A stretch of DNA of 64,000 nt from Opitutia bacterium (GTDB lineage Bacteria; Verrucomicrobiota; Verrucomicrobiia; Opitutales; Opitutaceae). The notes beneath the pieces were generated by a model. That model was not told the DNA's origin. It worked only from the letters and a program-made list of their open reading frames with translations, and searched no databases. The stretch is from positions 1,054,001 through 1,118,000 of the forward strand of contig JACPIT010000005.1 in NCBI GenBank assembly GCA_016187945.1, in the 5' to 3' direction. Positions 33,403-50,082 of the stretch are shown here, in pieces. Position numbers and translations under genes: made by a program. Numbering within the stretch: the first letter of the stretch is position 1; each line of letters opens with the position of its first letter.

Positions 33403-34578
33403 ATGACAACTTCTCCCGCCTCCTCCGCTCGCACGCGCTCGTTCGGTCTCGCTCTGGCATTCGCCGCGTGGCTCGCCCTTTCCTCGCCGCGCGCCCGCGC
33501 CGAAAACGCGCTCACCTACAAATACGAGGACTACAGCGAGGCGAACGATCGCATCGCCGTCACCACGCAGAGTGCGTTGCTCGAACAGGATCTCGGCCAC
33601 GACGTCCGGCTGAAACTCCAGGGCGTCACCGACGCGATCGTCGGCGCTACGCCCAACGGCCAGCCGGCCCCCGCCGGCGGCGATCAGGTCGTGCTCACGC
33701 ACATGAGCGAACGCCGCCACGAGTGGTCGCTCGACCTCTCGCGACAGCTCGCCCACTGGAATCTCGCCGCGAGCTACGCCAACAGCCGCGAGAGCGATTA
33801 CCACTCGCAGGGCTGGTCGCTGAACGCGCTCGGCGACTTCAACGACAAGAACACGACGCTCCTCCTCGGCCTCGGCGGCACGAGCGACGACGTGAAGGTT
33901 TTTTACCAAACGCCGTGGGCGCGGAAACGCTCGCTCGATCTCGCCGCCGGCGTGACGCAGCTCCTCGACGCGAACACCTCGGTCGCGTTCAACCTCTCGC
34001 TCAGCCACGCGACCGGCTACCTCAACGACCAATACAAGCTCGTCCAGAAATCGATCGAGGTCGGCCCGGGCATCTTCCTGCCCTTCACGTTCGGCGAAAA
34101 CCGCCCCGACGAGCGCACCAAATGGGTCGCGCTCGCCTCGCTCAACCGCGCGCTGCCCGCGGCCGACGCCGCGATCGACGCGAGCTATCGCTTTTACCAC
34201 GACACGTTCGGCACCAACAGTCACACGGTCGAATTCTCCTGGCTGCAAAAACTCGGCGCGCGCCTCGTGCTGATTCCCCACGTGCGCCTCTACACGCAGA
34301 GCGCGGCGGATTTCTATCACTACCGGCTCGACGGCACGAACATCACTCCCACCGGCGGCGCGCCGCGTCCGAACGGGCCGTTCTACTCCTCCGACTACCG
34401 GCTCTCCGAACTGCGCTCGATCACGTTCGCGCTCAAGGCCGTGGCGACGCTCTCGTCGCGCTGGCAACTCGACGCCGAGTTCGCGCGCTACGACATGCGC
34501 GGCCGCGACGGCGTCACGCCCGCGAGCGCCTATCCGCGCGCCGACGTCGTGACGCTCGGCGCAAAATTTTCCTGGTAA
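33403..34578 (+). CDS. DUF3570 outer-membrane beta-barrel protein, module A
   Basis: A 391-residue exported protein with a signal peptide ending near PRARA (about residue 33). The mature part begins ENALTYKYEDY and consists of alternating strands ending in GAKFSW with a terminal aromatic residue, as in outer-membrane barrels. It matches DUF3570, a family of unknown function. Residues 77-83 read DAIVGAT, close to the ApbE FMN-attachment consensus D-x-x-(S/T)-G-A-(T/S); Thr83 would be the acceptor. The start at 33403 is preferred to 33331 because it gives a normal signal peptide. It is the first gene of DUF3570-apbE-tlpA-DUF4266 (module A) and has a paralogue at 47184-48344. Confidence 0.82.
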   Translation: MTTSPASSARTRSFGLALAFAAWLALSSPRARAENALTYKYEDYSEANDRIAVTTQSALLEQDLGHDVRLKLQGVTDAIVGATPNGQPAPAGGDQVVLTHMSERRHEWSLDLSRQLAHWNLAASYANSRESDYHSQGWSLNALGDFNDKNTTLLLGLGGTSDDVKVFYQTPWARKRSLDLAAGVTQLLDANTSVAFNLSLSHATGYLNDQYKLVQKSIEVGPGIFLPFTFGENRPDERTKWVALASLNRALPAADAAIDASYRFYHDTFGTNSHTVEFSWLQKLGARLVLIPHVRLYTQSAADFYHYRLDGTNITPTGGAPRPNGPFYSSDYRLSELRSITFALKAVATLSSRWQLDAEFARYDMRGRDGVTPASAYPRADVVTLGAKFSW

Positions 34579-34598
34579 CCTCGCCCGCCACTCGCCCG

Positions 34599-35591
34599 AT
34601 GACCGCCGCCGAAACACCTCCGAGCACGCGCGATCGCAACGCGTCCGCGAGTGGCCGCGACGGTGCGTTGCGCCAGCTCGCGTTTCCGGCGCTCGGCACG
34701 ACTTGCGAGGTGCAATACGTCGCGCCCGCCGGCGCCGCGCAAGCCGCCGCGTTCGAGCGGGCCGTGGTGGGGTGGGTGAGCGCGTTCGAGGCGAAGTATT
34801 CGCGCTTCCGTCCGACGAGCCTCGTCAGCCGCATCAACGACGCAGCCGGCCGCGCGTGGGTCGAGGTCGACGCCGACATGGAGCAGATGCTCGCGCTCGG
34901 CGACGCGCTCTACGCCACGACCGGCGGCGTGCTTGACCCGACGGCGCTGCCGTTGTTGCGCCTCTGGAATTGGAAGGCGGAGCGTCCCACGATTCCGAGC
35001 GACGCGCAGATCGCCGCCGCGCGCCGGCTCGTCGGCTGGAACAAAGTTCAACGCGCCCCCGGGAAAATCTTTTTGCCCGAGCCGGGCATGGCGCTCGATT
35101 TCGGCGGCTTCGGCAAGGAATACGCCGTCGACATCGTCGCGCACCTCGCGCGGCAGCACGGCATCGGCGCCGCGCTCGTGGATTTCGGCCGCGATGTCTT
35201 TGCGCTCGGCACGCCGCCAGGCCGCCTCGCCTGGCACCTCGGCCTCGAAGACCCGCGGCATCCCGGCGCCACCTGGGGCAGCATCGCCGTGCGCGACGGG
35301 CGCGGCGTCGCCTCGTCGGGCGACTACGTGCGCTGCTTCCATCTCAACGGCCGGCGCTACGGACACATCGTCGATCCGCGCACCGGTTGGCCGGTCGCGA
35401 ACGGTTGCCTGCAAGTCACCGTCGTCGCCGCGACGTGCCTGCAAGCCGGCGTGCTCTCCACCGCGGCGTTCGTGCTCGGCGCGGAGCGCGGACTCGAACT
35501 CATCGCGCACTGCCCCGGCGCCGAGGGCGTGATCGTCACCGAGACGGCGCGCCACCACACCCGCGGTTTCCACGCCTATGTCGCTTCGTGA
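34599..35591 (+). CDS. apbE: ApbE-family FAD:protein FMN transferase, module A
   Basis: Enzyme that transfers FMN from FAD to a Ser/Thr of a target protein, Mg-dependent. It has 330 residues. Family features are TSLVSRIND after KYSRFRP, GGVLDPTALPLLRLW, LDFGGFGKEYAVD, VDFGRDVFALG, and ASSGDYVR with YGHIVDPRTGWPV near the C-terminus. Unusually, no signal peptide or lipobox is visible; the N-terminus is a polar stretch (MTAAETPPSTRDRNASASG). Bacterial ApbE is normally periplasmic, so it is unclear where it acts. It begins 20 bp after the DUF3570 stop and overlaps the TlpA gene by 14 bp. Confidence 0.88.
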   Translation: MTAAETPPSTRDRNASASGRDGALRQLAFPALGTTCEVQYVAPAGAAQAAAFERAVVGWVSAFEAKYSRFRPTSLVSRINDAAGRAWVEVDADMEQMLALGDALYATTGGVLDPTALPLLRLWNWKAERPTIPSDAQIAAARRLVGWNKVQRAPGKIFLPEPGMALDFGGFGKEYAVDIVAHLARQHGIGAALVDFGRDVFALGTPPGRLAWHLGLEDPRHPGATWGSIAVRDGRGVASSGDYVRCFHLNGRRYGHIVDPRTGWPVANGCLQVTVVAATCLQAGVLSTAAFVLGAERGLELIAHCPGAEGVIVTETARHHTRGFHAYVAS

Positions 35592-36099
35592 TTCGTTTCG
35601 ATTGCCCGTGCGGCTGCTCGCGCTCGCCGTCGTCGCGCTCGCCGCGCTCCCGGCGCTGTCGGCGCGCGTCACCGTCGGCGATGCGTTTCCGTCCCTGAAC
35701 GACCCTGCGCTCTCGCTCGAGGGAAACCTGCCGCCGTTTGCCGGTCGCGTGACGCTGGTCGATTTCTGGGCCTCGTGGTGCGAGCCGTGTCGCGCGTCGT
35801 TTCCCATCTACGCGCGGCTGCACGCGGACTACGGCCCGCGCGGCCTCGCGATCGTCGGCGTGAGCGTCGACAAACAGCGCGCCGCCTACGACGCGTTTCT
35901 CAAGCGCCTGCAGCCGCCGTTCGCCACCGTGCGCGACGCGCGGCACCGGCTCGCGTCGGTCGTCGACGTGCCGGCGATGCCGACCTGTTTCCTCGTCGGC
36001 CGCGACGGGCGCGTGCGCTTCGTCGGCGTCGGTTTCCACGGCGCGGAAACCACCGCCGAACTCCAGCGCGCCGTCGAAGCGGCGCTCGCCGAAAAATGA
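35578..36099 (+). CDS. TlpA-like periplasmic thioredoxin, module A
   Basis: A 173-residue exported thiol-disulfide oxidoreductase of the TlpA/ResA type. A signal-anchor helix (about 10-29) is followed by a thioredoxin fold with the active site WCEPC (Cys68, Cys71) and the cis-Pro loop VPAMPTCFLVG. ResA-like proteins reduce cysteines of exported partners. The obvious partner here is the DUF4266 lipoprotein encoded next, which ends in two Cys. The start lies inside the 3' end of the ApbE gene (14-bp overlap) and the stop overlaps the next ATG as ATGA, so translation is coupled on both sides. Confidence 0.88.
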   Translation: MSLRDSFRLPVRLLALAVVALAALPALSARVTVGDAFPSLNDPALSLEGNLPPFAGRVTLVDFWASWCEPCRASFPIYARLHADYGPRGLAIVGVSVDKQRAAYDAFLKRLQPPFATVRDARHRLASVVDVPAMPTCFLVGRDGRVRFVGVGFHGAETTAELQRAVEAALAEK

Positions 36100-36359
36100 A
36101 TTCTCCCATGAAAACGACCCGATTCCCCCGCGCCGCGCTCGCGCTCGTCGCCGCCGCGCTCGGTGCGCTCGCGCTCACCGGTTGTTCCTCGACCGATCTC
36201 GCGCGCGTGAAGCCGTATGAGCGCGAGGCGTTCGCGCACTACACGATGCGCTCCGACCGCGATCCGCTCGCCGCCACCATGAACGAGCACATCTACTTCT
36301 CGCGCGAGGCCGCCACTGGCGGGCGCGGCGTGAAGGGCAGCGGCTGCGGCTGCAACTGA
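36096..36359 (+). CDS. DUF4266 small lipoprotein ending GSGCGCN, module A
   Basis: An 87-residue predicted lipoprotein with lipobox LTGC after a hydrophobic signal. The start at 36096 overlaps the TlpA stop (ATGA); ATG 36108, four codons later, is the alternative and aligns with the paralogue. The mature part is short: a charged region with KPYEREAF and HYTMRSDRDPL, then EHIYFSREA and a Gly-rich tail ending GSGCGCN. The paralogue at 49843-50082 keeps the same last seven residues and the EHIYFSREA block, so these are the functional part. The terminal Cys-Gly-Cys suggests metal or disulfide chemistry linked to the neighbouring TlpA. Family function is unknown. Confidence 0.8.
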   Translation: MNSPMKTTRFPRAALALVAAALGALALTGCSSTDLARVKPYEREAFAHYTMRSDRDPLAATMNEHIYFSREAATGGRGVKGSGCGCN

Positions 36360-36461: not shown

Positions 36462-37139
36462 ATGCGCATTCTCATCATCGAGGACGAGCTGCAGCTCGCA
36501 CGGCACGTCACCCGCGCGCTGGTGCGCAACGGGCATTTCGTGAACACGCAGTCGGACGGCGCCGCGGGCCTGCGCACGGCGCTGAACGAGGCGCCCGATC
36601 TCATCGTGCTCGATCTCAACCTGCCGACGCTCGACGGCTTCGCCGTGCTGACGAAACTCCGCGAAGCCGCGCATCCCGCGCGCGTGCTGATCCTCACCGC
36701 CCGCGGCGAAGTCGAGCATCGCGTGAAAGGCCTCAAGGCCGGCGCGGACGATTATCTCGCCAAGCCGTTTTCGCTCGAGGAACTCGTCGCGCGCGTCGAG
36801 GCGCTCGGCCGGCGCGGCGTGCCGGTCGACAAAGCCGACCTCCTGCGCGTGGGCGACCTGACGATGGACGTCATCCATCGCCGCGTGATGCGCGCCGGCC
36901 AGCCGGTCGCGCTCTCGCCGCGCGAGTTCGACCTGCTCCACGTGCTCATGCAGGAGCCCGGCCGCGTCTTCTCCCGCACGGAGCTGTGCGAGCGCATCTG
37001 GCAGCGCGATCACGAATACGACACGCGCACCGTCGAGATCTTCGTCACGCGCCTCCGCAAGAAAATCGACGCGGGCTTCGCCGTCGCGCTCATCCACACG
37101 CAGCGGCTCGTCGGCTACACGATTCAGGCGCCCGTGTGA
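36462..37139 (+). CDS. OmpR/PhoB-type response regulator, module A
   Basis: A 225-residue DNA-binding response regulator. The receiver domain (1-120) has acidic pocket Glu7/Asp8, phospho-acceptor Asp51 in IVLDLNLP, Thr in LTARGE and Lys in YLAKPF. The winged-helix output domain (about 130-225) has LSPREFDLLHVLMQEPGRVFSR and RTVEIFVTRLRKKI. It is very similar to the regulator at 44453-45133, so the two modules duplicated their control genes. It lies 102 bp after DUF4266-A. The cognate kinase is two genes downstream. Likely targets are the GTAAC-N6-GTTAC sites in the region. Confidence 0.93.
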   Translation: MRILIIEDELQLARHVTRALVRNGHFVNTQSDGAAGLRTALNEAPDLIVLDLNLPTLDGFAVLTKLREAAHPARVLILTARGEVEHRVKGLKAGADDYLAKPFSLEELVARVEALGRRGVPVDKADLLRVGDLTMDVIHRRVMRAGQPVALSPREFDLLHVLMQEPGRVFSRTELCERIWQRDHEYDTRTVEIFVTRLRKKIDAGFAVALIHTQRLVGYTIQAPV

Positions 37140-37191: not shown

Positions 37192-37875
37192 ATGAACCCG
37201 CTCTCGCTGCCGCTCTGTCGTCCGTCGTTTCGTTTGCCCGCGCTTGCCCTTCTCGCGCTCGCGGCGATGGCGGTTGCCGTCTCCGGCCGCGCCGAGGCGA
37301 CGATCGAGGGCCGCGTCGCCCTGCCCAAGAGCCGCGCCACGCCGGTCGTGAGCCAGCGCTACGAAATCGTTTCCAAGGACGGCGTGCTCGCCACCACCCC
37401 CCCGCTCGCGGTCGTCTATCTCGAGGGAAAATTCGCACCGCCCGCCGCGCCGCGGCCGCCGGCTCAGGTCGGCCAGGAAAACATGAGCTTCGTGCCGACG
37501 CTGCTCGCGATCGAGGCCGGCACGCCGGTCGAGTTCCCGAACCACGACGACGTTTACCACAACATCTTCTCCTACTCGCCGACGAAGCGCTTCGACCTCG
37601 GCCGCTACCGCAAGGAGGACAAGCCGGTGCCGACCGTCACGTTCGAGACGCCCGGCCTCGTGGTGCTGCGCTGCGACATCCATGAGCACATGCGCGGGCT
37701 CATCCTCGTGCTCGACACGCCGCATTTCGTGACGACGGACGCCGCGGGGAATTTCCGGCTGAGCGGTTTGCCGGCCGGCCGTTTCACGCTGAAAGCCTGG
37801 CGCGACAGCCGCACCACGCTCGAACGCGAAGTCGAACTCCGCGACGGCGAGACGCTGCACGTCGAGTTCCCGTGA
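37192..37875 (+). CDS. Cupredoxin-like periplasmic protein with carboxypeptidase-regulatory-like tail
   Basis: A 227-residue exported protein with a signal peptide ending around SGRAEA. Residues about 95-170 form a blue-copper fold: FPNHDDVYHNIFS (His118, His123) and VVLRCDIHEHM (Cys161, His164, His166, Met167) supply a type 1 copper site. Residues about 173-227 (VTTDAAGNFRLSGLPAGRFTLKAW) are a small beta-sandwich of the carboxypeptidase-regulatory type. Proteins of this design are often annotated as methylamine-utilization-like. It is encoded between a response regulator and its kinase and overlaps the kinase start (GTGA), so it may be a copper or electron partner linked to signal input. Confidence 0.82.
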   Translation: MNPLSLPLCRPSFRLPALALLALAAMAVAVSGRAEATIEGRVALPKSRATPVVSQRYEIVSKDGVLATTPPLAVVYLEGKFAPPAAPRPPAQVGQENMSFVPTLLAIEAGTPVEFPNHDDVYHNIFSYSPTKRFDLGRYRKEDKPVPTVTFETPGLVVLRCDIHEHMRGLILVLDTPHFVTTDAAGNFRLSGLPAGRFTLKAWRDSRTTLEREVELRDGETLHVEFP

Positions 37876-39653
37876 ACACCGCGCCGCCGAACGCCGCCAC
37901 GCTGCCCGGCTACCGCGCAAAGCTGCTGGTGGCGATGATGGTCGTCGTGTCGGTCGCGACCGGGCTCGGCCTCCTCTACGCGCAGCGCAATCTCGCGGAA
38001 TCGGTGCGCCGCGCGTTCGAGCGCGAGTTCCGCTCCGAAGTCGCGGCCGTGCATGCGGCGCAGGAAGTGCGCGACGCCGCACTCGCCGAACGTTGCCGAG
38101 CGCTCGCGACGAAACCGCGCCTGCGCGCCGCGCTCGAGGACAACGCCCTCGATCTGCTCTACCCGAGCGCGCGCGACGAACTCGCCGGCGTCGTGACCGG
38201 CGCCGCCGAGTCGGGCGGCGCGACGACGGCGTTTCGCGCGGAGTTTTATCGCTTCCTCGATGCGCGCGGGGCAGTGATCCCGCCGCTCGACCTCCGCGGC
38301 GTGGGCGCGCTTTCCCCGGCGGCCGAGAAGCAGCTCAGCGCCGGTGTCGCCCCCGCGCGCCCGCAGCGCGGCTACATCGCGGCGGACGGACGACTGAACG
38401 AGATTCTAGCGGTCCCGATTCCGTCCTCGGAGACCGGCGAGACGATCGCGGTGCTCGTGCTCGGTTTCCGCGCGCCGGCGATCGGCCGGCCCGACGGCGC
38501 GTCGTTCGAGCGCGGGCTCTGGCTCGGCGGGCAATTGCACCTGGCGAGTCTCCGCGGACCGGGCGCCGCCGTCGTCGCGCAACGGCTCGCGGCCGACGCC
38601 GACGCGCACGGGGCGAGCGAGCACAGCGTTCAACTCGACATCGATGGCGCGCCGAGCCTGCTCTTCTACAAGCTCCTCAATCCCGACTCCGCCTATCCGC
38701 CCGCCTACGAGGTCTGCGTTTACTCGCTCGACGACCTCGCGCGCCGCCAGCGCGTTCTCCTCTGGCAGTTTTTCGCCGCGTGGGCGGTGCTCCTCCTCGG
38801 CTCGTTCGCCGCGAGCCGCGTGCTCGCGACGCGGTTGAGCCGGCCGGTCGAGAAACTCGCCCTCGACTCCGAGCAGAACCGCGCGGACCTGCAGCGCACG
38901 GCGGCGGCGTTGGAAATGAGCCACGAGGAACTCGCGCGCACCGCACGCTTCTCGGCCAACGCCTCGCACCAGCTCAAGACGCCCGTTGCCGTTCTGCGCA
39001 CCGGCCTCGAGGATTTGCTCGCGAGCAAGAAACTCGATCACGAGGCGCGCGAGGAAGTGTCCACGCTCGTGCACCAGACGTTCCGCCTCACGAGCGTGAT
39101 CGAGGATTTGCTGCTGCTCTCGCGCCTCGACGAAGGCCGGCTCCGTCTCGAACTCGCGCCGGTGAACCTCGTGCCGCTGATCGACGCGTGGCTCGACGAC
39201 TTGAGCGCACTGCCCGAGGGGCGCGACCTCATCGTCGAGCGCGAGCTGCCCGACGCATTGCGGGTGCTCGGCGAGCAGCGCTACACGACGCTCATTCTCC
39301 AAAACCTCCTCGAGAACGCGCGGAAATACAACCGCCCCGGCGGCCGCGTGCGCATCGCGGCGACGATCGACGGTGCGGACGCGCTGCTCGTCGTCGGCAA
39401 CACCGGCGCGCCGATCCCGCCCGAATCGCAGGCGCACATCTTCGAGCGCTTCCATCGCGGCGCGGTGGCGGAAAACAAACCCGGCCACGGCCTCGGCCTC
39501 AATCTTGCGCGCGAGCTCGCGCGCTTGCACCGCGGCGACCTGCGCCTGTTGCGCTCGGCCGACGATTGGACCGAGTTCGCCGTGCGCTTCGTCCGCGCCG
39601 AGCCCGATGCGCCCGGCGCTCCCGCGCCCGTCGCGCCGGGTGTCGCGTCATGA
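37872..39653 (+). CDS. Sensor histidine kinase, module A
   Basis: A 593-residue membrane kinase with a GTG start overlapping the cupredoxin stop. It has a first helix (about 18-36), a periplasmic domain of about 250 residues with no recognised fold, a second helix (about 297-316), a HisKA domain with His366 in NASHQLKTPVAVLRTG, and a HATPase domain with LLENARKYNRPGG and GHGLGLNLARELA. The C-terminus is Pro/Ala-rich. It is paralogous to the kinase at 45130-46902, including the SAYPPAYEVC-type segment before the second helix. The presumed partner is the response regulator at 36462. Its stop overlaps the porin-like gene's start (ATGA). The stimulus is unknown; copper or redox state is suggested by context. 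Confidence 0.9.
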   Translation: MNTAPPNAATLPGYRAKLLVAMMVVVSVATGLGLLYAQRNLAESVRRAFEREFRSEVAAVHAAQEVRDAALAERCRALATKPRLRAALEDNALDLLYPSARDELAGVVTGAAESGGATTAFRAEFYRFLDARGAVIPPLDLRGVGALSPAAEKQLSAGVAPARPQRGYIAADGRLNEILAVPIPSSETGETIAVLVLGFRAPAIGRPDGASFERGLWLGGQLHLASLRGPGAAVVAQRLAADADAHGASEHSVQLDIDGAPSLLFYKLLNPDSAYPPAYEVCVYSLDDLARRQRVLLWQFFAAWAVLLLGSFAASRVLATRLSRPVEKLALDSEQNRADLQRTAAALEMSHEELARTARFSANASHQLKTPVAVLRTGLEDLLASKKLDHEAREEVSTLVHQTFRLTSVIEDLLLLSRLDEGRLRLELAPVNLVPLIDAWLDDLSALPEGRDLIVERELPDALRVLGEQRYTTLILQNLLENARKYNRPGGRVRIAATIDGADALLVVGNTGAPIPPESQAHIFERFHRGAVAENKPGHGLGLNLARELARLHRGDLRLLRSADDWTEFAVRFVRAEPDAPGAPAPVAPGVAS

Positions 39654-40897
39654 AAACGCTGCGCCTCGCTCTTGTTTTCCTCGGTGTCGTCCCCGCGTGC
39701 GCGTCGGCGTGGGATGACGAGTGGCTCGACCGGCTCGATGCCACGCTCACGCGCGCGGCGGACGACGGCGCGTGGCGCGCGCGGCTCAGCGGCGTCGTCG
39801 AGGTGAACTACTACCGCTTCGACCAACCGGCGCCCGGCTTGATCGAAGCGCAGGGCCGCTCGCTCTTCGACCCGCGCCTCGTGCTCTTCCTCGACGCGCA
39901 AGCCGGCGCGCGCTGCTATTTTTTCGCGCAGGCGCGCCTCGACGGCGGCTTCGATCCCGGTGCGCACGACGGCGGGGTGCGGCTCGACGAGTATGCGCTG
40001 CGCATCCGCGCCGGCGAGGCGGAGCGGCTCGTGTTTCAAGTCGGGAAATTCGCCACGGTCGTCGGCCAGTGGGTGAAGCGTCACCAGGCGTGGGACAACC
40101 CGTTCGTGTTCGCGCCGCTCGCCTACGAGAATCCCACGGGCATCTTCGACGAGACGGCGGCGCGCTCCGCGACAGTGTTGCGGTCGTGGGCGCACGTCGG
40201 CGTGCCGTTCGCGCCGGCGCCGGGCGACGAGTATCGCGTGCCGGTGATCTGGGGACCGTCGTATGCCAGCGGCGCCTCGGTGGCCGGACGCAGCGAGCAT
40301 TTCGATTACGCGCTGGAACTGAAAAACACCGCGCTCTCCTCGCGCCCCGAGGCGTGGGACGCCACCCACACGCAGTGGCAAAACCCCGCGTGGCATGCGC
40401 GCCTCGGCTGGCGCCCGGACTTGCGGTGGAACTTCGGCGTGTCGTTCGGCGCCGGCGCCTACCTGCGCGACTCCGCCGCGCGCACGCTGCCGGCCGGACG
40501 CTCGCTCGCCGACTACCGGCAGACGACGCTCGGCTTCGACGCGAGTTTCGCCTGGCGGCACTGGCAACTCTGGGCCGAGGGCTACCGCGCGCGCTTCGCG
40601 ATTCCCGGCGTCGGCGACGCGGACACGTTCGTCGGCTTCATCGAGGCGAAATACAAGTTCACGCCGCAGCTCTTCGGCGCCGTGCGGTGGAACCGTCAGA
40701 CGTTCGGCGACGTGCCCGACGACGTCACGCGACGCCCACTGCCGTGGGGCGCGGATGAGTCGCGCCTCGATTTCGCCGCGGGCTACCGTTTCACGCCGCA
40801 CACCGAACTCAAGCTCGAGTGCGACCTCGAGCGCGGCCGCGCCGGCACCGGCGGCGGCGCGACGACGTTCGCCGCGCAATTCGTGCTGCGTTTCTGA
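39650..40897 (+). CDS. Porin-like outer-membrane protein
   Basis: A 415-residue exported protein with signal peptide MKTLRLALVFLGVVPACASA. The remainder shows amphipathic strands, many aromatic residues and a C-terminal Phe (FAAQFVLRF), typical of outer-membrane barrels. Segments such as ARLSGVVEVNYYRFDQ, LVFQVGKFATVVGQWVKRH and FVGFIEAKYKFTPQLFGAVRWN recall phosphate-selective or general porins, but no specific family is certain. It is translationally coupled to the sensor kinase, which places it in the cupredoxin-kinase operon. It might bring in or release the compound sensed. The function is not assigned further. Confidence 0.7.
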   Translation: MKTLRLALVFLGVVPACASAWDDEWLDRLDATLTRAADDGAWRARLSGVVEVNYYRFDQPAPGLIEAQGRSLFDPRLVLFLDAQAGARCYFFAQARLDGGFDPGAHDGGVRLDEYALRIRAGEAERLVFQVGKFATVVGQWVKRHQAWDNPFVFAPLAYENPTGIFDETAARSATVLRSWAHVGVPFAPAPGDEYRVPVIWGPSYASGASVAGRSEHFDYALELKNTALSSRPEAWDATHTQWQNPAWHARLGWRPDLRWNFGVSFGAGAYLRDSAARTLPAGRSLADYRQTTLGFDASFAWRHWQLWAEGYRARFAIPGVGDADTFVGFIEAKYKFTPQLFGAVRWNRQTFGDVPDDVTRRPLPWGADESRLDFAAGYRFTPHTELKLECDLERGRAGTGGGATTFAAQFVLRF

Positions 40898-41270: not shown

Positions 41271-44264
41271 ATGAAACTCCCCGCCTTCTTCCAGCGCCGC
41301 ATCCACTGGCTCAATCTTCCGAGCGCGATCCTCATGCTGATCCTTCAGCGGACGCCCGCCGCTACGCTCGTGGCCGTGGCCGACGAGATCGTCGCCGCCG
41401 CGCCGCTCGGCACGGTCCTGAAATCCGCGCTCGCCACCGCCGCCGCGCTCGGCGCCGTCAACACCGTCGTCGGCGCCACGCCCCTCGTCCCATCGAGCGG
41501 CACGGCGAGCGGCGTCACGGTCACCACGGGCAATTCCGTCTCCGTTTTCTACACTGTCAACGGCACGCAAACGCCGCCCCAGTCGTGGAGCGTCTCGGGA
41601 AGTTTCCCGCCCGGCCTGAATTTCTCCGGCCTGACCAGCGACGGCGCGGTGAACGTCAGCTCGCTCAATCTCTCCGGCACACCGACGACCGCGGGAACTT
41701 ACAACGTCACGATCATCGCTTACGAATTCACCAATCAGGGCGGCATCGCTTCGCCCTCCTACAGCTACACCGTCACCGTCACCGGCGGCAACACGGCCAC
41801 CGCGCCGAGCATCACGACGCAGCCGTCGAGCCAGACGGTGACCGCAGGCACATCGGTGACGTTCACCGCCGCCGCGAGCGGCAACCCGACGCCGACGTTC
41901 CAGTGGCGCAAGGACGGCAGCGACATCGCGGGTGCCACGAGCGCGAGCTACACGATTGCGAGCGCCGCCGCGGGCGACGCGGGAACTTACACGGTCGTCG
42001 CGACAAACTCCGCCGGCTCCGCCACAAGCACCGGCGCGACGCTCACCGTAAACGCCGCGACCGCCGCGCCGACGTTCACGACGCAACCGAGCAACCAGAC
42101 GACGACCGCGGGCGGCTCGGTGACGTTCACCGTCGCCGCGAGCGGCAACCCGACGCCCACGTTCCAGTGGCGCAAGGACGGCACGAACATCTCCGGTGCG
42201 ACGAGCGCGAGCTACACGATCGCGAGCGCCGCCGCGGGCGACGCGGGAACTTACACGGTCGTCGCGACGAACTCCGCCGGCTCCGCCACAAGCACCGGCG
42301 CGACGCTCACCGTGAACGCCGCCACCGCCGCGCCGACGTTCACGACGCAACCGAGCAACCAGACGACGACCGCGGGCGGCTCGGTGACGTTCACCGCCGC
42401 CGCGAGCGGCAACCCGACGCCGACGTTCCAGTGGCGCAGGGACGGCAGCAACATCGCCGGCGCCACGAACGCGAGCTACACGATCGCGAGCGCCGCCGCG
42501 GGCGACGCGGGAACTTACACGGTCGTCGCGACAAACTCCGCCGGCTCCGCCACAAGCACCGGCGCGACGCTTACGATCACCACAACGGACGTCGCGCCCG
42601 AGATTACCTCGAGCCCGAGCGGCCAATTGGCCGCGCTCGGCAGCTCGGTGACTTTCACCGTCACCGCGACCGGCAGCCCGGCGCCGACTTACCAATGGCG
42701 CAAAGACCTCAACAACATCGCCGGTGCCACGAGCGCGAGTTATACGATCGCGAGCGTCGCGCTCAGCGATGCCGGCCACTACTCGGCCGTCGTAACGAAT
42801 CCGCTCGGCACCGTGATCAGCGGCTCGGCCACGCTCACGGTCACGACGACGGCGTCGCGTCACCTCAACGACGTCACCGTCACCAGCGGACACGGCACGA
42901 CGTTGAGCGCGGGCAGCGTGACCGGCTCGGTGAAATGGCAGATTTCCACCAATGGCGGCTCGACGTGGGCGGACTTGACCGACGGCGGCAGCTACAGCGG
43001 CGTCACGACCGCGACGCTCGCGATCGCAAACGTCGGCTCGACTCTCAACGGCGCGCAGTATCGCTTCGTCGTGGCGAACAACGGCGTCATCTCCACGAGC
43101 AATGGCGCCACTCTCACTGTCGCGACGGTATTCTTCCCGTTCCCGACCGGCATCGGCGCCGACGGCTCCGGCAATCTCTTCGTCGCCGACGCGAACGCCG
43201 ACACCGTGCAGAAGATCAATTCGTCCAACCAAGTCAGCCTCCTGGCCGGCGCGAACAATTCCACCGGCGCCACCGATGGGACTGGCGCAGCGGCGCGCTT
43301 CAACCAGCCCAACGGCGTCGTCGTCCTCGCCAGCGGCAGCCTCGTCGTCGCCGACACCGCCAACGCCACGCTTCGCGCGATCGACGCGAACGGCGCGGTG
43401 ACGACGCTCGCAGGTTCCAGCGCCACGCGCGGCGGCGCCGACGGCACGGGCACCGCCGCGACATTCTCCGCGCCCGTCGGCCTCGCGCGCGACAGCGGCG
43501 GCGTGGTGTTCGTCGCCGACTCGATGAACCACGCGATTCGCAAAGTCACTTCCGCCGGCGCGGTCACGACCTTTGCCGGCAGCGCAGGCGCGCAAGGCTC
43601 GACGGACGGCGCGGGCGCGGCGGCGCGTTTCAACTTGCCCAACGGCATCGCCGTCGACGCGAACGGCGTGGCCTACGTCGCAGACACGACGAACAACACG
43701 ATCCGCCGCATCGCCGCCGACGGCACCGTCAGCACGCTCGCCGGCCTCGTCGGCGTAAGCGGCTTCGACAACGGCACCGGCCTCGCCGCGCTCTTCAATC
43801 GTCCGATGGCGGTCGTCGTCGACGGCGCCGGCAACCTGTTTGTCGCCGACACCGGCAACTCCACGATCCGCAAAGTCACGGCCGCGGGCGTCGTCACGAC
43901 CTTCGCCGGCACGGCCGGTATCGCGGGCATCGCCGACGGCACGGGCGCGGACGCGCTTTTCAACCAGCCGCAAGCGCTCGCGATCGACGCTGCCGGCAAT
44001 CTCTACGTCGCCGACACCGGCAACGCCGCCATCCGCAGGATCACGCCTGCCGGGGTCGTCACGACCCTCGCGCTCACCGCCGCGCCGGCGCCGACCCCGA
44101 CGCCCACTCCCACGCCGACCCCGACGCCCACGCCAAATCCCTCCTCCGGCGGCGGCGGTGGTGGCGGCGGCGGCGGCGCCCCGAGCGTCTGGCTGCCGCT
44201 CAGCGCAACGCTGCTGCTCGCGCTGCGCCAACGCCGGCGCTCGCGCCTCGCGCGCCGCGACTGA
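41271..44264 (+). CDS. Giant Ig-repeat/NHL-repeat surface protein 1
   Basis: A 997-residue secreted or surface protein. The N-terminus has a LP(S/A)-LILQRTP motif and a hydrophobic stretch ending VVGAT, shared with the paralogue at 50148. Residues about 70-175 form a putative-Ig domain (LSGTPTTAGTYNVTI). Next come three 88-residue Ig-like repeats, nearly identical in DNA (264-bp period, 41.8-42.6 kb), a fourth diverged one, then five or six NHL blades (about 620-925; GNLFVADTGNSTIRKVT). A Pro-Thr linker and Gly run lead to the tail GGAPSVWLPL, a hydrophobic helix and an Arg cluster, resembling a three-part sorting signal. It probably binds a ligand or surface. It has its own operator upstream. 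Confidence 0.82.
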   Translation: MKLPAFFQRRIHWLNLPSAILMLILQRTPAATLVAVADEIVAAAPLGTVLKSALATAAALGAVNTVVGATPLVPSSGTASGVTVTTGNSVSVFYTVNGTQTPPQSWSVSGSFPPGLNFSGLTSDGAVNVSSLNLSGTPTTAGTYNVTIIAYEFTNQGGIASPSYSYTVTVTGGNTATAPSITTQPSSQTVTAGTSVTFTAAASGNPTPTFQWRKDGSDIAGATSASYTIASAAAGDAGTYTVVATNSAGSATSTGATLTVNAATAAPTFTTQPSNQTTTAGGSVTFTVAASGNPTPTFQWRKDGTNISGATSASYTIASAAAGDAGTYTVVATNSAGSATSTGATLTVNAATAAPTFTTQPSNQTTTAGGSVTFTAAASGNPTPTFQWRRDGSNIAGATNASYTIASAAAGDAGTYTVVATNSAGSATSTGATLTITTTDVAPEITSSPSGQLAALGSSVTFTVTATGSPAPTYQWRKDLNNIAGATSASYTIASVALSDAGHYSAVVTNPLGTVISGSATLTVTTTASRHLNDVTVTSGHGTTLSAGSVTGSVKWQISTNGGSTWADLTDGGSYSGVTTATLAIANVGSTLNGAQYRFVVANNGVISTSNGATLTVATVFFPFPTGIGADGSGNLFVADANADTVQKINSSNQVSLLAGANNSTGATDGTGAAARFNQPNGVVVLASGSLVVADTANATLRAIDANGAVTTLAGSSATRGGADGTGTAATFSAPVGLARDSGGVVFVADSMNHAIRKVTSAGAVTTFAGSAGAQGSTDGAGAAARFNLPNGIAVDANGVAYVADTTNNTIRRIAADGTVSTLAGLVGVSGFDNGTGLAALFNRPMAVVVDGAGNLFVADTGNSTIRKVTAAGVVTTFAGTAGIAGIADGTGADALFNQPQALAIDAAGNLYVADTGNAAIRRITPAGVVTTLALTAAPAPTPTPTPTPTPTPTPNPSSGGGGGGGGGGAPSVWLPLSATLLLALRQRRRSRLARRD

Positions 44265-44452: not shown

Positions 44453-45133
44453 ATGCGAATCCTCGTGCTCGAAGACGAGCAACAACTCGCGCGTCATATC
44501 GTGAGCGCGCTGACGCGCCACGGCCACGTGGCGACGGCCGAGCACGACGGGAACGCCGGCGTGCGCCGCGCGCTCACGGATCGCCCGGACCTGATCGTGC
44601 TCGACCTGAATCTGCCCGGCCTCGACGGCTTCGGCGTGCTCGCGCAGGTGCGCGCGGGCGGCGGCGCGGCGCGCGTGCTGATGCTCACCGCGCGCGGCGA
44701 GGTGGAGCATCGCGTCGCCGGATTGCGCGCGGGCGCGGACGACTATCTCGCGAAGCCCTTCGCGATGGACGAACTGCTCGCGCGAATCGAGGCGCTCGGC
44801 CGCCGCGGCACGGCGCCGACGGCGGAGGATCTGCTGGCGGTGGCGGACCTGCGCGTCGACGCGCATCGCCGCACGGTGGCGCGCGGCGGCGTGCCGATCG
44901 AGCTGTCGCCGCGCGAATTCGACCTGCTGCTCGTGCTCATGCAGGAGCCGGGGCGGGTTTTCTCGCGCGGGGAGATTTGCGAGCGCGTCTGGCATCGCGA
45001 GCACGAGTATCACACGCGCACGGTGGAGATTTTCATCGGCCGCCTGCGCAAGAAAATCGACGCGAGCGGTCCGGTGCTCATCCATACCGTGCGCTCGGTC
45101 GGCTACACGCTCCGCGCGCCGTCCCGGCCATGA
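44453..45133 (+). CDS. OmpR/PhoB-type response regulator, module B
   Basis: A 226-residue regulator with receiver domain (Glu7, Asp8, phospho-acceptor Asp51 in IVLDLNLPGLDGF, Lys in YLAKPF) and a winged-helix domain (LSPREFDLLLVLMQEPGRVFSR, RTVEIFIGRLRKKI). It is closely related to the module A regulator, most residues being identical. The start MRILVLEDE at 44453 is the family-typical one. The preceding 188 bp show no gene or clear operator. The stop overlaps the kinase start (ATGA), so this pair is strictly coupled, unlike module A where a cupredoxin gene intervenes. Confidence 0.93.
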   Translation: MRILVLEDEQQLARHIVSALTRHGHVATAEHDGNAGVRRALTDRPDLIVLDLNLPGLDGFGVLAQVRAGGGAARVLMLTARGEVEHRVAGLRAGADDYLAKPFAMDELLARIEALGRRGTAPTAEDLLAVADLRVDAHRRTVARGGVPIELSPREFDLLLVLMQEPGRVFSRGEICERVWHREHEYHTRTVEIFIGRLRKKIDASGPVLIHTVRSVGYTLRAPSRP

Positions 45134-46902
45134 TGCCCGAGAATACCGTCGCGCCGTTTCCGACGACCACGCCGAAGCGCTTCCGCTGGCGCCTCCAACT
45201 GACGATCATGGCGGTGGTGTCGGCGGTGACGGTGGTCGTGCTGTGGTTCGCGCAGCGGCGCATGGAGCAGACGGCGGAGCAGGGGCTGATGCGGGAATTC
45301 CAGCACACGTTCGACGCGCTGCGCGACGTGCAGGAAATGCGGCGCGCGGCGTTGATGGAGCGCTGCCGCGGATTGGTCGATCGCCTGCGCGCCTCGTCCG
45401 AACGCGATTTCCGGCAGCGCATTTATGCGCACGGCGTGGAGGTGCTGCGCGACGTGATCGAGCGCGACGAGACCGGTGAGACGAAACCGGAGCAGCAGTT
45501 TCACGTCGAGTTCGTGCGTTTTCTCGAGCCGGACGGACGAATGATCGAACCGCCGACGGGTGCGCCCGTCGGGACGCTCACGCCCGCGGAAGAGGCGCAG
45601 TTGGCGCTGCGAGGTCTCTCCGGCGTCGAGCCGCAACTCGGTTACCTGCTTCGCGAGCGGGTGGATCTCGACGGTCCGGTCTACGACGTGATCGCGCTGC
45701 CGGTGGTGAACGCGCGCGACGGGCGCGTCGTCGCAGTGCTGGTGCTCGGTTTCGAGCCGGCCAAGCACGTGATCGCCGCGAAGGTGCCGCGCGAAGAAAC
45801 GATCTCGGGCGTGTGGACGCAGGGTCGGATGTTCCTGCTCGGGCTGCCGCCGTCCGAGGAGCAGAACGTCGCCGACGCCGTGAACGGCGCGCTCGCGCGG
45901 CAACGCGTGCCGGTGCGGCCATTGTCCGTGACGGTCGCCGGCGTCCCGCGCTTGCTGCTGATGCAATGCCTGAACGTCGGCTCCGCCTATCCGCCGGCTT
46001 ACGAGGTGGGCCTCTACTCGCTCGAGAAAATGCAGGCGCTGCAATGGCAGTTGCGCTGGCAGGTGCTCGGCGCGGGCGGGTTCGTGCTGTTGCTCGCGAT
46101 CGGGATCAGCCATTTGATGGCCGTGCGTTTCGCGCGTCCGATGGAGCAACTGGTGCAATTTTCCGCGGAGAACCGCGCGCGCCGCCGCCACGCGGAGGAG
46201 GCGCTGGCGCTGACGACAGAAGGCTTGCGACGCGCGGCGCGTTTTTCCGCCGACGCCTCGCACCAACTCAAGACGCCCGTCGCGGTGCTGCGCTCGGGCC
46301 TGGAGGAGTTGCGCGTGAAGGAGCGCTTGTCGCAGGGCGCCGAACGCGAGGTGCAGGCGCTGATCGCGCAGACGTCGCGGCTCTCGACGTTGATCGACGA
46401 CCTGCTGCTGCTCTCGCGCATGGACGCCGGCCGCCTGGAAATCCAGTTCGGCGTCGTGGATCTCGTGCGGCTCGTCGAGGGCGTGCTCGACGATCACAGC
46501 GTGCGGCCCGACCCGCTCGGCTTGCAGATGAAAGTCGATTTGCCGCCGCGCCTGCCGGTGCGCGGCGAGGCGCGCTACGTCTCGCTCGTGATCGAAAACC
46601 TCCTCGAGAACGCCGCGAAATACAACCGCCCCGGCGGCGTCGTCCGGCTGCGCGGGGCGCGGCGCGACGGCTGGGTCGAACTCATCGTGAGCAACACGAC
46701 GCGCCAGCCGATCCCGCTCGCGGATCAGCCGCGAATTTTCGACCGGTTCAGTCGCGGCGCGATGGGCGAGGACATCCCCGGCTACGGCCTCGGGCTGAAT
46801 CTCGCGCGCGAACTCGCGCGCTTGCACCACGGCGAACTCGAGTTGCTGCGCTCCGACGCGGAGTGGACGGAGTTCGTCGTGCGGCTCGTCGCGGCCGACT
46901 GA
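45130..46902 (+). CDS. Sensor histidine kinase, module B
   Basis: A 590-residue membrane kinase: first helix about 22-40, periplasmic domain of about 270 residues, second helix about 312-330, HisKA with His378 in DASHQLKTPVAVLRSG, HATPase with LLENAAKYNRPGG and GYGLGLNLARELA. It is paralogous along its whole length to the module A kinase (shared periplasmic segments such as GYLLRERVDLDG/GYIAADGRLNE and SAYPPAYEV), so both probably detect related signals. The start is ATG 45130 (overlapping the regulator stop) or ATG 45133. It is followed by a 281-bp gap holding a GTAAC-type operator before DUF3570-B. Confidence 0.9.
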   Translation: MMPENTVAPFPTTTPKRFRWRLQLTIMAVVSAVTVVVLWFAQRRMEQTAEQGLMREFQHTFDALRDVQEMRRAALMERCRGLVDRLRASSERDFRQRIYAHGVEVLRDVIERDETGETKPEQQFHVEFVRFLEPDGRMIEPPTGAPVGTLTPAEEAQLALRGLSGVEPQLGYLLRERVDLDGPVYDVIALPVVNARDGRVVAVLVLGFEPAKHVIAAKVPREETISGVWTQGRMFLLGLPPSEEQNVADAVNGALARQRVPVRPLSVTVAGVPRLLLMQCLNVGSAYPPAYEVGLYSLEKMQALQWQLRWQVLGAGGFVLLLAIGISHLMAVRFARPMEQLVQFSAENRARRRHAEEALALTTEGLRRAARFSADASHQLKTPVAVLRSGLEELRVKERLSQGAEREVQALIAQTSRLSTLIDDLLLLSRMDAGRLEIQFGVVDLVRLVEGVLDDHSVRPDPLGLQMKVDLPPRLPVRGEARYVSLVIENLLENAAKYNRPGGVVRLRGARRDGWVELIVSNTTRQPIPLADQPRIFDRFSRGAMGEDIPGYGLGLNLARELARLHHGELELLRSDAEWTEFVVRLVAAD

Positions 46903-47183: not shown

Positions 47184-48344
47184 ATGTCGCACCCACAACG
47201 CCCCGCCTTCGCTCCGGCTCTGCTCGTCGCCGGCGTGCTCTTTCTCCTGCACCCGCGCAGCGCGCGCGCGGAATCGACCGTCACCTACAAATACGAGGAC
47301 TATCGCGAGTCCGCCGGCCGCGTGGGCGTGCAGGCGCAATACGGCCTGATTGAGCAATCGCTCGGCACCGACGCGAAACTGAAACTCACCGGCGTCATCG
47401 ACGCCATCGCCGGCGCGACGCCCACGGGCGAGGCGCCGAGCACGCCCGGCGGCGACGTGCCGCTCACGCAGATGCACGAGCGCCGCAAGGCCTGGACCGC
47501 CGACTACTCGCGCCAGATCGGCCGCGTGAACCTCGGCCTCGGCATCGCCAACTCGCGCGAGAGCGACTACGTCTCCAACGGCGCGTCGCTGAACACGCTC
47601 ACGGATTTCAACGACAAGAACACCTCGCTCCTCCTCGGCTTCAGCGCGACCGACGACACCGTGCGCGTCTTCTACCAGCCCGAGCGCGTGAAGAAGCGCG
47701 CGTGGGATGCCGTCGTCGGCGTCAACCAGCTCCTCGACCCGCAGACCTCCGTCTCGCTCAACTTCAGCTTCGGCCACGTCTCCGGCTACCAGAGCGATCC
47801 CTACAAGATCATCACGAAGGACACCGAGCTGCTGCCCGGCCTCGTGCTGCCGCTGACGTTCCCCGAAAACCGTCCCGACACGCGCAACAAGTGGATCGTC
47901 TTCGCGAGCGTGAATCACTCCGTCGACTCCGTGCACGGCGCCGTCGACGCGAGCTACCGCCTCTACCACGACTCCTTCGGCACCACGAGCCACACGCTCA
48001 CCGCGGCGTGGCTCCAGAAACTCGGCGCGCACGTCGTGCTGATCCCGAGCGTGCGTTTCTACCAGCAAGGTCAGGCCGATTTCTATCACGTCACGCTCAC
48101 CGGCACCGCCATCGTGCCCGGCGATCGGCCGAACCCCGCCGGTCCTTTTTTTTCCGCCGACTACCGGCTCTCGAAACTGCGCAGCGTGAACTGCGGCCTG
48201 AAACTCGTGTGGAATCCCACGGAGCACGTGCACCTCGACGTCGCGGTGGACCGCTACGACATGGCCGGCCGCGACAGCCTCACCTCCGCCAGCGCCTATC
48301 CCGACGCCAACATCGTGACCGCCGGCATCAGCTTCACCTGGTAA
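47184..48344 (+). CDS. DUF3570 outer-membrane beta-barrel protein, module B
   Basis: A 386-residue exported protein with signal peptide ending RSARA (about residue 29). The mature part begins ESTVTYKYEDYRE and matches the module A protein throughout, ending in a strand with terminal Trp (GISFTW). Residues 73-79 read DAIAGAT, again near the ApbE FMN-attachment consensus, with Thr79 as possible acceptor. The start at 47184 gives a normal signal peptide; an upstream in-frame start at 47019 would add 55 unrelated residues. It is the first gene of module B and is preceded by a GTAAC-N6-GTTAC operator. Confidence 0.82.
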   Translation: MSHPQRPAFAPALLVAGVLFLLHPRSARAESTVTYKYEDYRESAGRVGVQAQYGLIEQSLGTDAKLKLTGVIDAIAGATPTGEAPSTPGGDVPLTQMHERRKAWTADYSRQIGRVNLGLGIANSRESDYVSNGASLNTLTDFNDKNTSLLLGFSATDDTVRVFYQPERVKKRAWDAVVGVNQLLDPQTSVSLNFSFGHVSGYQSDPYKIITKDTELLPGLVLPLTFPENRPDTRNKWIVFASVNHSVDSVHGAVDASYRLYHDSFGTTSHTLTAAWLQKLGAHVVLIPSVRFYQQGQADFYHVTLTGTAIVPGDRPNPAGPFFSADYRLSKLRSVNCGLKLVWNPTEHVHLDVAVDRYDMAGRDSLTSASAYPDANIVTAGISFTW

Positions 48345-48363: not shown

Positions 48364-49347
48364 GTGACCGCCTCCGCCACTCTCCCGTCCGACACGACGC
48401 CGCCGCACTCGACCGAGCGCGGCGAGCCGCCGCTGCGCCGGTTCGCGTTCCGTGCGCTCGGGACGAATTGCGAAGTGCGCTACGTCGCGCCGGCGCCCGG
48501 CGCCTCGGTGCAGTTCGAGCACGAGTTGCGCGCGTGGGTCGAGCGCTTCGAGGCGCGCTACTCGCGCTTCCGGCCCACCAGCCTCGTCTCGCGCATCAAT
48601 GCCGCTGCCGGCTCGTGGATCGAGATCGACGACGAGATGGAGGAGATGCTCGACATTTGCGGATCGCTGCACGCGCTCACCGGCGGCATCCTCGACGCCA
48701 CCGCGGGACCGTTGCTGCAACTCTGGGATTACCGCAACCCGCCCACGCAACTGCCGACCCCCGCCTGCGTCGCCGCCGTGCGCGGACTCGTCGGCTGGCC
48801 GCGCGTCGAGCGCGTGCGCGGCCGCGTGCGGTTGCGCCCGGGCATGTCGCTCGATCTGGGCGGGTGGGGCAAGGAGTGGGCGGTCGACATCGTCGCCCAA
48901 CTCGCGCGCCGCGCCGGCGTGCGCGACGCGTTGATCGATTTCGGTCACGACATCCGCGTGCTCGGCGCGCCGCCCGGACGCCCCGCGTGGCACATCGGTC
49001 TCGAAAATCCCGCCGTGCCCGGCCAGCACCACGGCGGCATCGCCGTGAGCGGCAGCAAGGGCGTCGCGTCGTCCGGCGACTACATCCGGCAATTCACTTT
49101 CGCCGGCCGCCGCTTCGGCCACATCGTCGATCCGCGCGACGGCTACCCGGTCGCGCACGGCCTGCAACAGGTCACGGTGATCGCGGAAAATTGTTTCATG
49201 GCCGGCGTGCTCTCCACGACCGCCTTCGTGCTCGGCCCGCGTCTCGGGCTGGAATTCATCCAGCGCTTCCCTGGCGCCGAGGGCCTGCTCGTCACCGTCA
49301 ACGACCGCGCGCAGACGCGCGGCTTCTGGAATTATGTCGTCACGTAA
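48364..49347 (+). CDS. apbE: ApbE-family FAD:protein FMN transferase, module B
   Basis: A 327-residue flavin transferase with a GTG start 20 bp after the DUF3570-B stop. It shows the family pattern: FRPTSLVSRIN, GGILDATAGPLLQLWDY, SLDLGGWGKEWAVDIV, IDFGHDIRVLG, ASSGDYIRQF and FGHIVDPRDGYPV. As in module A there is no signal peptide or lipobox; the N-terminus is polar (VTASATLPSDTTPPHSTERG). It overlaps the TlpA gene by 14 bp, the same overlap as in module A, so the whole four-gene arrangement was duplicated as a block. Likely target: the DUF3570 protein encoded just upstream (inference). Confidence 0.88.
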   Translation: MTASATLPSDTTPPHSTERGEPPLRRFAFRALGTNCEVRYVAPAPGASVQFEHELRAWVERFEARYSRFRPTSLVSRINAAAGSWIEIDDEMEEMLDICGSLHALTGGILDATAGPLLQLWDYRNPPTQLPTPACVAAVRGLVGWPRVERVRGRVRLRPGMSLDLGGWGKEWAVDIVAQLARRAGVRDALIDFGHDIRVLGAPPGRPAWHIGLENPAVPGQHHGGIAVSGSKGVASSGDYIRQFTFAGRRFGHIVDPRDGYPVAHGLQQVTVIAENCFMAGVLSTTAFVLGPRLGLEFIQRFPGAEGLLVTVNDRAQTRGFWNYVVT

Positions 49348-49846: not shown

Positions 49847-50082
49847 AAACTCCGCTCGCTCTCCGCCTCGCTCTCGCCACCGCCGCGCTCGCCGCCGCGC
49901 TGCTCGGCACCGGTTGCTCCACCGCGCGCGTCCAGCCGTGGGAGCGCGCGACGCTCGCCGACTACACGATGCGGCCCGATCGCGATCCGCTCCAAAACGC
50001 GATGACCGAGCACATCTATTTCTCCCGCGAAGCCTCCTCCGGCGGTCGCGGCGTCGGCGGCAGCGGCTGCGGCTGCAACTGA
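49843..50082 (+). CDS. DUF4266 small lipoprotein ending GSGCGCN, module B
   Basis: A 79-residue predicted lipoprotein, start coupled to the TlpA-B stop by ATGA. The signal ends in GTGC (lipobox). The mature part shows RVQPWERATLADYTMRPDRD, EHIYFSREA and a Gly-rich tail ending GSGCGCN. Comparison with module A: the DYTMRxDRDPL, EHIYFSREA and GGRGVxGSGCGCN blocks are kept while the signal peptide differs, so selection acts on these blocks. Such a conserved extreme C-terminus is unusual for a structural lipoprotein and may be a metal-binding or modification site. Confidence 0.8.
   Translation: MKTPLALRLALATAALAAALLGTGCSTARVQPWERATLADYTMRPDRDPLQNAMTEHIYFSREASSGGRGVGGSGCGCN

Follow-up and report, generated by a model that had tools for sequence, protein, structure and literature searches.

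Two DUF3570-ApbE modules of an Opitutia bacterium, with candidate flavin sites, ApbEs lacking a recognisable signal peptide and a candidate second substrate

The flavinylation of exported proteins by ApbE, the FAD:protein FMN transferase (FAD, flavin adenine dinucleotide; FMN, flavin mononucleotide), is normally seen as an extracytoplasmic reaction. Here we describe two copies of a four-gene module, DUF3570-apbE-TlpA-like thioredoxin-DUF4266, found at positions 33403-36359 (module A) and 47184-50082 (module B) of a 64-kb window from an Opitutia bacterium (contig JACPIT010000005.1, positions 1,054,001 to 1,118,000). The window is the whole stretch of 64,000 nucleotides that was analysed, and all genes and motifs given below with coordinates as start..end lie on its + strand.

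The DUF3570 family was named as an ApbE substrate by Meheust et al. (2021; PMC8238504). According to the main text of that article, the DUF3570 protein of Chlorobium luteolum, co-expressed with its cognate ApbE, gave ultraviolet fluorescence, both of two [ST]GA[ST] sites had to be mutated for the fluorescence to be lost, and most of the protein was in the pellet and was flavinylated. The same text describes a cluster of ApbE, DUF3570, a thioredoxin-like protein and DUF4266, including the CxC end of DUF4266, with or without DsbD, and reports 316 clusters without DsbD. Because DUF3570 flavinylation and the cluster were shown and described there, the proposal of a flavinylated DUF3570, made in a preliminary description of this locus, is prior art: it is backed by the published C. 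luteolum test and, having appeared in 2021, is not new. The words 'beta-barrel' and 'porin' are absent from the main text of PMC8238504, 'outer membrane' occurs there once, on TonB receptors, and 'NHL repeat' is absent from its full text; in the follow-up article (PMC11334425), '3570' does not occur as the start of a word. Across the literature searched, with most subscription journals and supplements outside its scope, DUF3570 or DUF4266 is named only in PMC8238504, and no description of the type I ApbE subclass or of the immunoglobulin (Ig)/NHL motif proteins discussed below was found. The lack of a recognisable ApbE signal peptide, the altered metal site and the Ig/NHL proteins with an N-terminal motif also go beyond the preliminary description; the ApbE subclass and these motif proteins are what is new here.

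Both window modules resemble the system of Meheust et al. (2021) in that DUF3570 carries a GA[ST] motif and is accompanied by an adjoining apbE, a thioredoxin-like gene and a DUF4266 with a terminal CxC; DUF3570, ApbE, thioredoxin-like/Redoxin and DUF4266 were all matched by Pfam in each module, in agreement with the gene order first described. They differ in having one site per barrel rather than two, with V or A at position 4 of the motif, in ApbEs whose metal site is altered and which show no recognisable signal peptide, and in a nearby Ig/NHL protein that carries its own motif.

Other known systems share single traits with the modules. In Klebsiella, a cytoplasmic ApbE serves fumarate reductase (PMC12052999); it lacks a signal peptide, as the window ApbEs do, and acts in the cytoplasm, as is predicted for them, but its substrate is a soluble enzyme, whereas the candidate substrates in the window bear export signals. 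The FMN_bind proteins NqrC and RnfG have an ApbE-type heptad with phosphoester-linked FMN, for which the window holds a candidate site, but they differ in fold and place. Porin-cytochrome conduits such as MtrCAB pair a barrel with redox carriers at either face of the outer membrane. By analogy the window system would operate likewise, but it has no hemes and would use flavin and thiols instead.

We put at about 0.72 the probability of a joint reading in which DUF3570 is flavinylated in the cytoplasm and then exported, to work in an envelope flavin electron-transfer module with the Ig/NHL protein as a probable second substrate. Observed are the genes, the conservation of the motif, ApbEs without signal-like stretches, a barrel model and the co-occurrence of the Ig/NHL N-terminus; from these we infer where and when the proteins are modified, a second substrate, and the path and direction of the electrons.

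The candidate flavin site and the DUF3570 barrel

DUF3570-A (33403..34578; Pfam PF12094, 1.7e-64), which has a signal peptide, and DUF3570-B (47184..48344; 1.5e-64) are 54% identical, and their Pfam scores of 218.6 and 218.8 bits compare with a curated cut-off of 25. The heptapeptides were located, on re-reading of the sequence, where the preliminary description had placed them: DAIVGAT at residues 77-83 of DUF3570-A (33631..33651), with Thr83 as candidate acceptor, and DAIAGAT at residues 73-79 of DUF3570-B (47400..47420), with Thr79. Both have the relaxed motif with a small residue at position 4, and a D...GA[TS] string arises by chance in about 3% of shuffles (696 and 602 of 20000 for DUF3570-A and -B, respectively).

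The motif nevertheless exceeds chance, since the relaxed heptad stands in the same aligned place in all 102 type I DUF3570 rows, 74 of which are biased because they came from a search (80 loci) with the motif as one of its two seeds. The remaining 28 rows, window included, are the type I members among 32 full rows picked by Pfam profile alone (31 neighbourhoods read). In these, G5, P8 and G10 are invariant (28/28 each) and position 7, the acceptor, is always T (22) or S (6). Position 6 is A in 26 rows and S in two, D (19 rows) or N (nine) stands at position 1, and position 4 is S in 15, A in eight, V in three and T in two. Val or Ala at position 4, first regarded as the weak point, is therefore ordinary natural variation; V occurs there in the window's genus (module A) and in L131. 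The type I tallies exclude L055, L060 and L065, which are type II, and L063, and open reading frames (ORFs) sharing their last 250 residues were counted as one. The DUF3570 alignments exclude L058 and L077 (G121:C1 near 1015000), where stops break the DUF3570 gene into three ORFs (a TAG at one of the breaks) although the remaining module genes are present.

It had been expected that the motif would be conserved only where apbE is linked. This was rejected, since the motif is retained in 10 of 11 DUF3570 ORFs that have no apbE within reach; two of the ten are possibly linked (L134, whose sequence ends 48 bases past the gene, and the second copy of L091, where it ends 848 bases past), and the eleventh, L063, has no motif at the aligned place and is possibly misaligned. 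In all eight tested genomes whose DUF3570 has no apbE in reach, apbE is found elsewhere in the genome.

At the three type II loci (L055, L060 and L065), the motif reads DYVSSAS and the genes stand in another order. In type II DUF3570 proteins (these three, L168 and L169), which also occur on Bacteroidota plasmids, xxxSSAS replaces xxxSGA[TS]; the ApbEs of L055, L060, L065 and of L169 have hydrophobic N-termini. The C-terminal DGVTPAS/DSLTSAS of the window proteins was considered as another FMN site and rejected as unconserved.

The outer-membrane barrel of the preliminary description is supported by a confident model of DUF3570-B, on which the assignment of its homologue DUF3570-A also draws. 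AlphaFold2 with 63 relatives predicted 18 strands with a predicted local distance difference test score (pLDDT) of 92.3 and a predicted template modelling score of 0.86. Foldseek matched the model to porin, FadL and TonB-receptor barrels, including PfeA, FadL, OccK, OmpG and others, with E down to 5e-9 (PfeA and FadL); the template modelling scores by query length were 0.35-0.49 among the 50 matches listed, and the match is therefore one of fold class, not of family. The model has eight even turns of 2-5 residues, six of which vary by at most one residue across the family while two reach 11-12, and odd loops that are long or variable, including the flavin loop of 13 residues, growing to 160, and others of 36 and 11. 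By the usual barrel rule, the candidate flavin site, located where strand 64-80 ends, would lie on the outer side. The hydropathy pattern of this strand, examined for whether position 4 faces lipid or lumen, has a register shift.

The loop after the site divides the family. It has 54-160 residues in 17 type I DUF3570s, versus about 13 in the others, and in 14 of the 17 it contains at least one further [GA]A[TS] string, reading [AS]GAT in 11 (e.g., WAKAGATP, NSLSGATP and NAISGATS). Given the abundance of Ala, Pro, Ser and Thr in these inserts, some of the loose matches will be due to chance; the extra string is presumably the second site described in the text of PMC8238504. Both window proteins belong to the short-loop class and, because the insert is missing, have one site each.

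The ApbE subclass

The apbE-A gene (34599..35591; Pfam PF02424, 8.4e-75), with an alternative GTG start at 34575 that overlaps the DUF3570-A stop, and apbE-B (48364..49347; 4.9e-69) encode proteins that score 252.2 and 233.2 bits versus a cut-off of 25.6. Signal-like stretches were judged by the best mean hydropathy of 12 residues in up to 60 residues upstream, stop to stop, with a cut-off of 2.0, a measure simpler than a trained predictor. By this measure neither window ApbE has the signal peptide or lipobox of the classical periplasmic ApbE lipoprotein, the best values being 0.76 for ApbE-A, over 60 residues of open frame before the domain, and 1.2 for ApbE-B, over 39 in-frame residues. None of 91 type I ApbEs reaches 2.0 and six reach 1.6, whereas in the same loci 80 of 106 DUF3570 proteins and 82 of 90 thioredoxins reach 2.0, as do all 30 of the best-scoring ApbEs from other loci of the phylum, a type II DUF3570 neighbour among them.

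It seems improbable that an unrecognised route carries the window ApbEs out of the cytoplasm to flavinylate in the periplasm, in the manner of NqrC or of the type II DUF3570 loci. Such a route would agree with most characterised ApbEs being periplasmic lipoproteins (PMC12052999) and with the hydrophobic N-termini (2.40, 2.12 and 1.93) of the ApbEs at three type II loci; however, no signal-like segment precedes either window domain in the open frame measured, type I ApbEs lack one throughout the 91 rows, and the Klebsiella enzyme shows that cytoplasmic ApbEs exist. The C. luteolum ApbE may itself bear a signal peptide, to judge from the cloning wording of PMC8238504, where the DUF2271 pair was expressed with a signal-peptide-truncated apbE and a 'similar cloning strategy' is given for C. 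luteolum.

The metal site of the subclass is also altered. The Asp of A-D-x-x-x-T is Gly in both window ApbEs and in 89 of 91 type I rows (two could not be read at this position), and Glu replaces Gly after the conserved Lys in all 91, whereas the best 30 other ApbEs of the phylum all retain both the classical Asp and the Gly. In our reading, the lost Asp is equivalent to D280 of E. coli ApbE, given as a metal 1 ligand in the text of PMC4767422. In the phylum sample and a few plasmids, no ApbE outside type I showed the Glu/Gly pair; Asp is replaced by Asn, without the Glu, in two of six plasmid ApbEs.

These changes might mean that type I ApbEs have lost transferase activity and taken another role, for example in hydrolysing or binding FAD, and that the motif of DUF3570 is a structural feature of the barrel. 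The replaced metal Asp and the turn that G-A-T-P-x-G could form would suit this explanation, but we hold it to be very unlikely: a Glu was gained beside the conserved Lys in every row, the site His, Lys and Thr are retained in 93/94, 93/94 and 91/94 ApbE rows, respectively, and in the window ApbEs, the motif turns up again both in the long barrel loop and in an unrelated protein encoded at these loci, and the DUF3570 and ApbE gene trees are concordant. Distances in the two families correlate with a Mantel r of 0.908 (92 pairs; 0 of 999 permutations as high), and modules A and B form separate clades in both trees.

DUF3570 was found by Pfam profile search in 30 of 288 phylum genomes, and ApbE occurs in 30/30 of these versus 219/288 of the whole sample; all four module genes stand together in 26 of the 31 profile-picked neighbourhoods. 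The host genome (95.7% complete) has two ApbE genes, both inside these modules, to which its DUF3570 genes are also confined. FMN_bind and DUF2271 gave no match in this genome, other possible substrates lying outside the search.

Orphan type I apbE genes were seen in L201 and L204 (G283:C22 and G290:C129), where they adjoin type II secretion K/M-like genes.

Ig/NHL proteins and the proposed electron path

Downstream of both modules lies a gene for a protein of about 1000 residues, Ig/NHL protein A (41271..44264; Pfam I-set, NHL), separated from module A by a regulatory cassette, and Ig/NHL protein B (50148..53210; Ig_3, NHL), directly after module B. Each carries a motif near its N-terminus, NTVVGAT in A (41460..41480) and DTLAGAT in B (50340..50360), and both proteins are candidate second substrates of ApbE. 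Homologues are present in 70 of 108 module loci. They have in common 60-70 N-terminal residues, 'LP..LL.ALLQRTP..R ... LGAV' followed by [HDNQ]-[STAG]-x-[ASVT]-[GA]-A-[TS], after which they diverge.

A profile was built only from the columns preceding the motif, on 54 training rows that had been chosen by the motif, and it recovered 79 distinct ORFs in the fetched sequences. In these partner ORFs, position 7 is T in 71 and S in eight, position 6 is A in all 79, position 5 is G in 75 and A in four, position 4 is A in 52, S in 22, V in four and T in one, and position 1 is H in 41, D in 23, N in 11 and Q in four; strict canonical sites occur in four (L053, L091, L116 and L141). Because the training rows were motif-picked, the 25 held-out ORFs (0.30-0.97 identity to the nearest training row) give the fairer figure: GA[TS] in 21 and AA[TS] in four. 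The background of the relaxed motif is 30 in 461,693 residues of 1121 other mechanical ORFs of the loci.

The distribution of this N-terminus follows that of DUF3570. In a survey of 52 genomes in which all candidates were scored, strong matches occurred in 15 of the 16 DUF3570-bearing genomes of the window's class; no strong match was found in the three DUF3570-bearing genomes outside that class or in the 33 genomes without DUF3570, 13 of them with ApbE, though G075 gave two weak ones (E 0.005-0.009). In the phylum-wide survey of 288 genomes, where at most 19 candidates per genome were scored, strong matches occurred in 15 of 30 DUF3570 genomes and in none of the 258 others; G287 gave a weak match (7.6e-5) with an internal stop. 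Among loci with at least 1.2 kb of sequence beyond the module, the partner N-terminus accompanies, on the same strand, 61 of 69 short-loop modules and none of 17 long-loop ones (61/86 overall). In this sample a second candidate site is therefore carried either by the barrel loop or by a separate protein, never by both. In seven of the eight short-loop misses the regulator/cupredoxin cassette intervenes and the sequence ends before the gene is visible; in one of these genomes, G099, the partner lies further on.

Where the DUF3570 module lacks apbE, a type I ApbE elsewhere adjoins an N-terminal motif gene in G288, G291 and G292 and lies about 1.4 kb from one in G290; none was seen near the type I ApbE of G283, the contig ends in G293, and in G289 and G294 the ApbE is beside a DUF3570. 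Position 4 is the same residue in barrel and partner in 48 of 68 loci (A/A 25, S/S 19, V/V 3 and T/T 1), V/V being found only in the window's genus, whose module B is A/A; shared ancestry can account for much of this agreement. In L146 (8731-12613), one DUF3570 module is followed by three tandem genes with the N-terminal motif region.

Signal peptidase is not known to require Gly at -2 or Thr/Ser at +1. Both residues are nevertheless conserved in the partner ORFs (Gly in 75/79 and 21/25 held-out; Thr/Ser in 79/79 and 25/25), which argues against a rival explanation that we regard as unlikely while taking it seriously: that the Ig/NHL motif is a mere signal-peptidase I site of an unusually long conserved signal sequence, DUF3570 being the sole ApbE substrate. 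Signal peptidase would be suited by A/S/V at -3 and Ala at -1, a hydrophobic run precedes the motif, and the predicted fold switches from helix to beta domain exactly there; the Ig/NHL model, less certain than that of the barrel (pLDDT 80.8 overall, 51-75 in blocks of the first 70 residues), places the motif at a helix end with the first beta domain right after it, as predicted for protein B, which fits a signal-peptidase site and a flavin site equally. The restriction of strong N-terminal matches to DUF3570-bearing genomes and the adjacency of this region to some orphan type I ApbEs also speak against a mere cleavage site.

Under the joint reading, in which flavinylation precedes export, ApbE-A and ApbE-B would attach FMN in the cytoplasm, where FAD is available, to Thr83 of DUF3570-A and Thr79 of DUF3570-B, on unfolded chains; the flavinylated C. 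luteolum DUF3570 in the pellet, as given in the main text of PMC8238504, fits modification of an unfolded chain. The flavinylated chains would cross via Sec, and the 18-strand barrels that they form in the outer membrane would carry the flavin at a loop predicted to lie outside. A further probable target of both ApbEs is the N-terminal [HDN]xx[ASV]GA[TS] site of the nearby Ig/NHL proteins. Electrons would pass from the inner membrane via DsbD to the TlpA-like thioredoxin, the DUF4266 CxC tail, FMN and then an outside acceptor. The thioredoxins (35578..36099, TlpA/ResA-like, with a signal peptide and WCEPC, Pfam Redoxin/Thioredoxin_8; and 49334..49846, WCAPC, Pfam) and the DUF4266 proteins (36096..36359, PF14086 2.2e-20; and 49843..50082, 5.5e-23), lipoprotein-like by eye and both ending in CGCN, would turn each module into a small envelope unit for flavin-based electron transfer, of the kind already published. 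In a more tentative form, to which we give somewhat less than an even chance, the signal-less ApbE subclass with its rewired metal site would tag both a barrel and a surface Ig/propeller protein before export, forming a heme-free flavin conduit, and sister lineages would carry the second flavin on the long barrel loop instead.

Several points weigh against the joint reading. The strict D-x-x-[ST]-G-A-[ST] is absent from DUF3570-A and -B, which have V or A at position 4, and the flavin on these two proteins is a prediction. The change of the metal Asp to Gly could mean that ApbE activity is lost or altered, and the Ig/NHL motif can also be read as a site for signal peptidase (A/S/V-G-A | T). 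Signal loss or Asp loss is not unique to type I ApbEs: L154, a type I ApbE outside the 91, has an upstream hydrophobic stretch, while L161, L162, L163, L165, L166 and L167 have none, two of the six having too few upstream residues for judgement, yet keep the Asp, and the plasmid Asn cases lack it. Half of the DUF3570 genomes of the phylum survey (15/30) have no strong N-terminal match among the at most 19 candidates scored per genome. The single DsbD_TM match of the host genome (C9:12438) is about 1 Mb from the modules. Common descent weakens every count. The transit of an FMN-bearing chain through Sec is an assumed step; that Sec can pass bulky adducts was reportedly the subject of a 2011 study by Bonardi and co-workers.

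The route by which FAD reaches an extracytoplasmic ApbE has been called obscure (PMC12052999). If the joint reading is true, a cytoplasmic ApbE dedicated to exported substrates would bypass this FAD-supply problem, and Sec and the barrel-assembly machinery would handle flavin-bearing chains. A second class of surface substrate would then offer a plausible cytochrome-free exit route for electrons in some Verrucomicrobiota.

The C-termini of Ig/NHL proteins A and B, with a glycine-rich stretch, APS[VL]W, a hydrophobic run and a basic tail, resemble GlyGly-CTERM sorting signals by eye. Such a tail is not general to the partners, since the pattern was found in only four of 58 complete ORFs, though it misses clearly related tails, for example that of L099.

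Neighbouring genes and mobile-element context

The cassette between module A and Ig/NHL gene A (36462-40897) begins with an OmpR-type response regulator (36462..37139; Pfam), and the same cassette is found in 8-9 of 108 loci. It is followed by a protein (37192..37875) with a CDIHEHM motif, matched in Pfam only by CarboxypepD_reg, which is cupredoxin-like by eye, by a sensor histidine kinase (37872..39653; Pfam), and by a signal-peptide protein without a Pfam match (39650..40897), porin-like by eye only. Homologues of the cupredoxin-like and porin-like proteins lie near a DUF3570 module in nine and eight of 108 loci, respectively. Upstream of module B, a second response regulator (44456..45133; Pfam) and sensor histidine kinase (45133..46902; Pfam) are encoded.

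No relative of DUF3570-B was found in viral contigs, and a plasmid search returned two distant Bacteroidota DUF3570 proteins only. Downstream of the modules, the region 53564-63930 contains a tRNA-Leu gene followed by a tyrosine-recombinase-like ORF (53722-54972) and a transposase-like ORF, together with a relaxase/helicase-like ORF (58627-61419) and a coupling-protein-like ORF (61982-63364). By these gene names, which were given by eye, the region looks like an integrated conjugative element.

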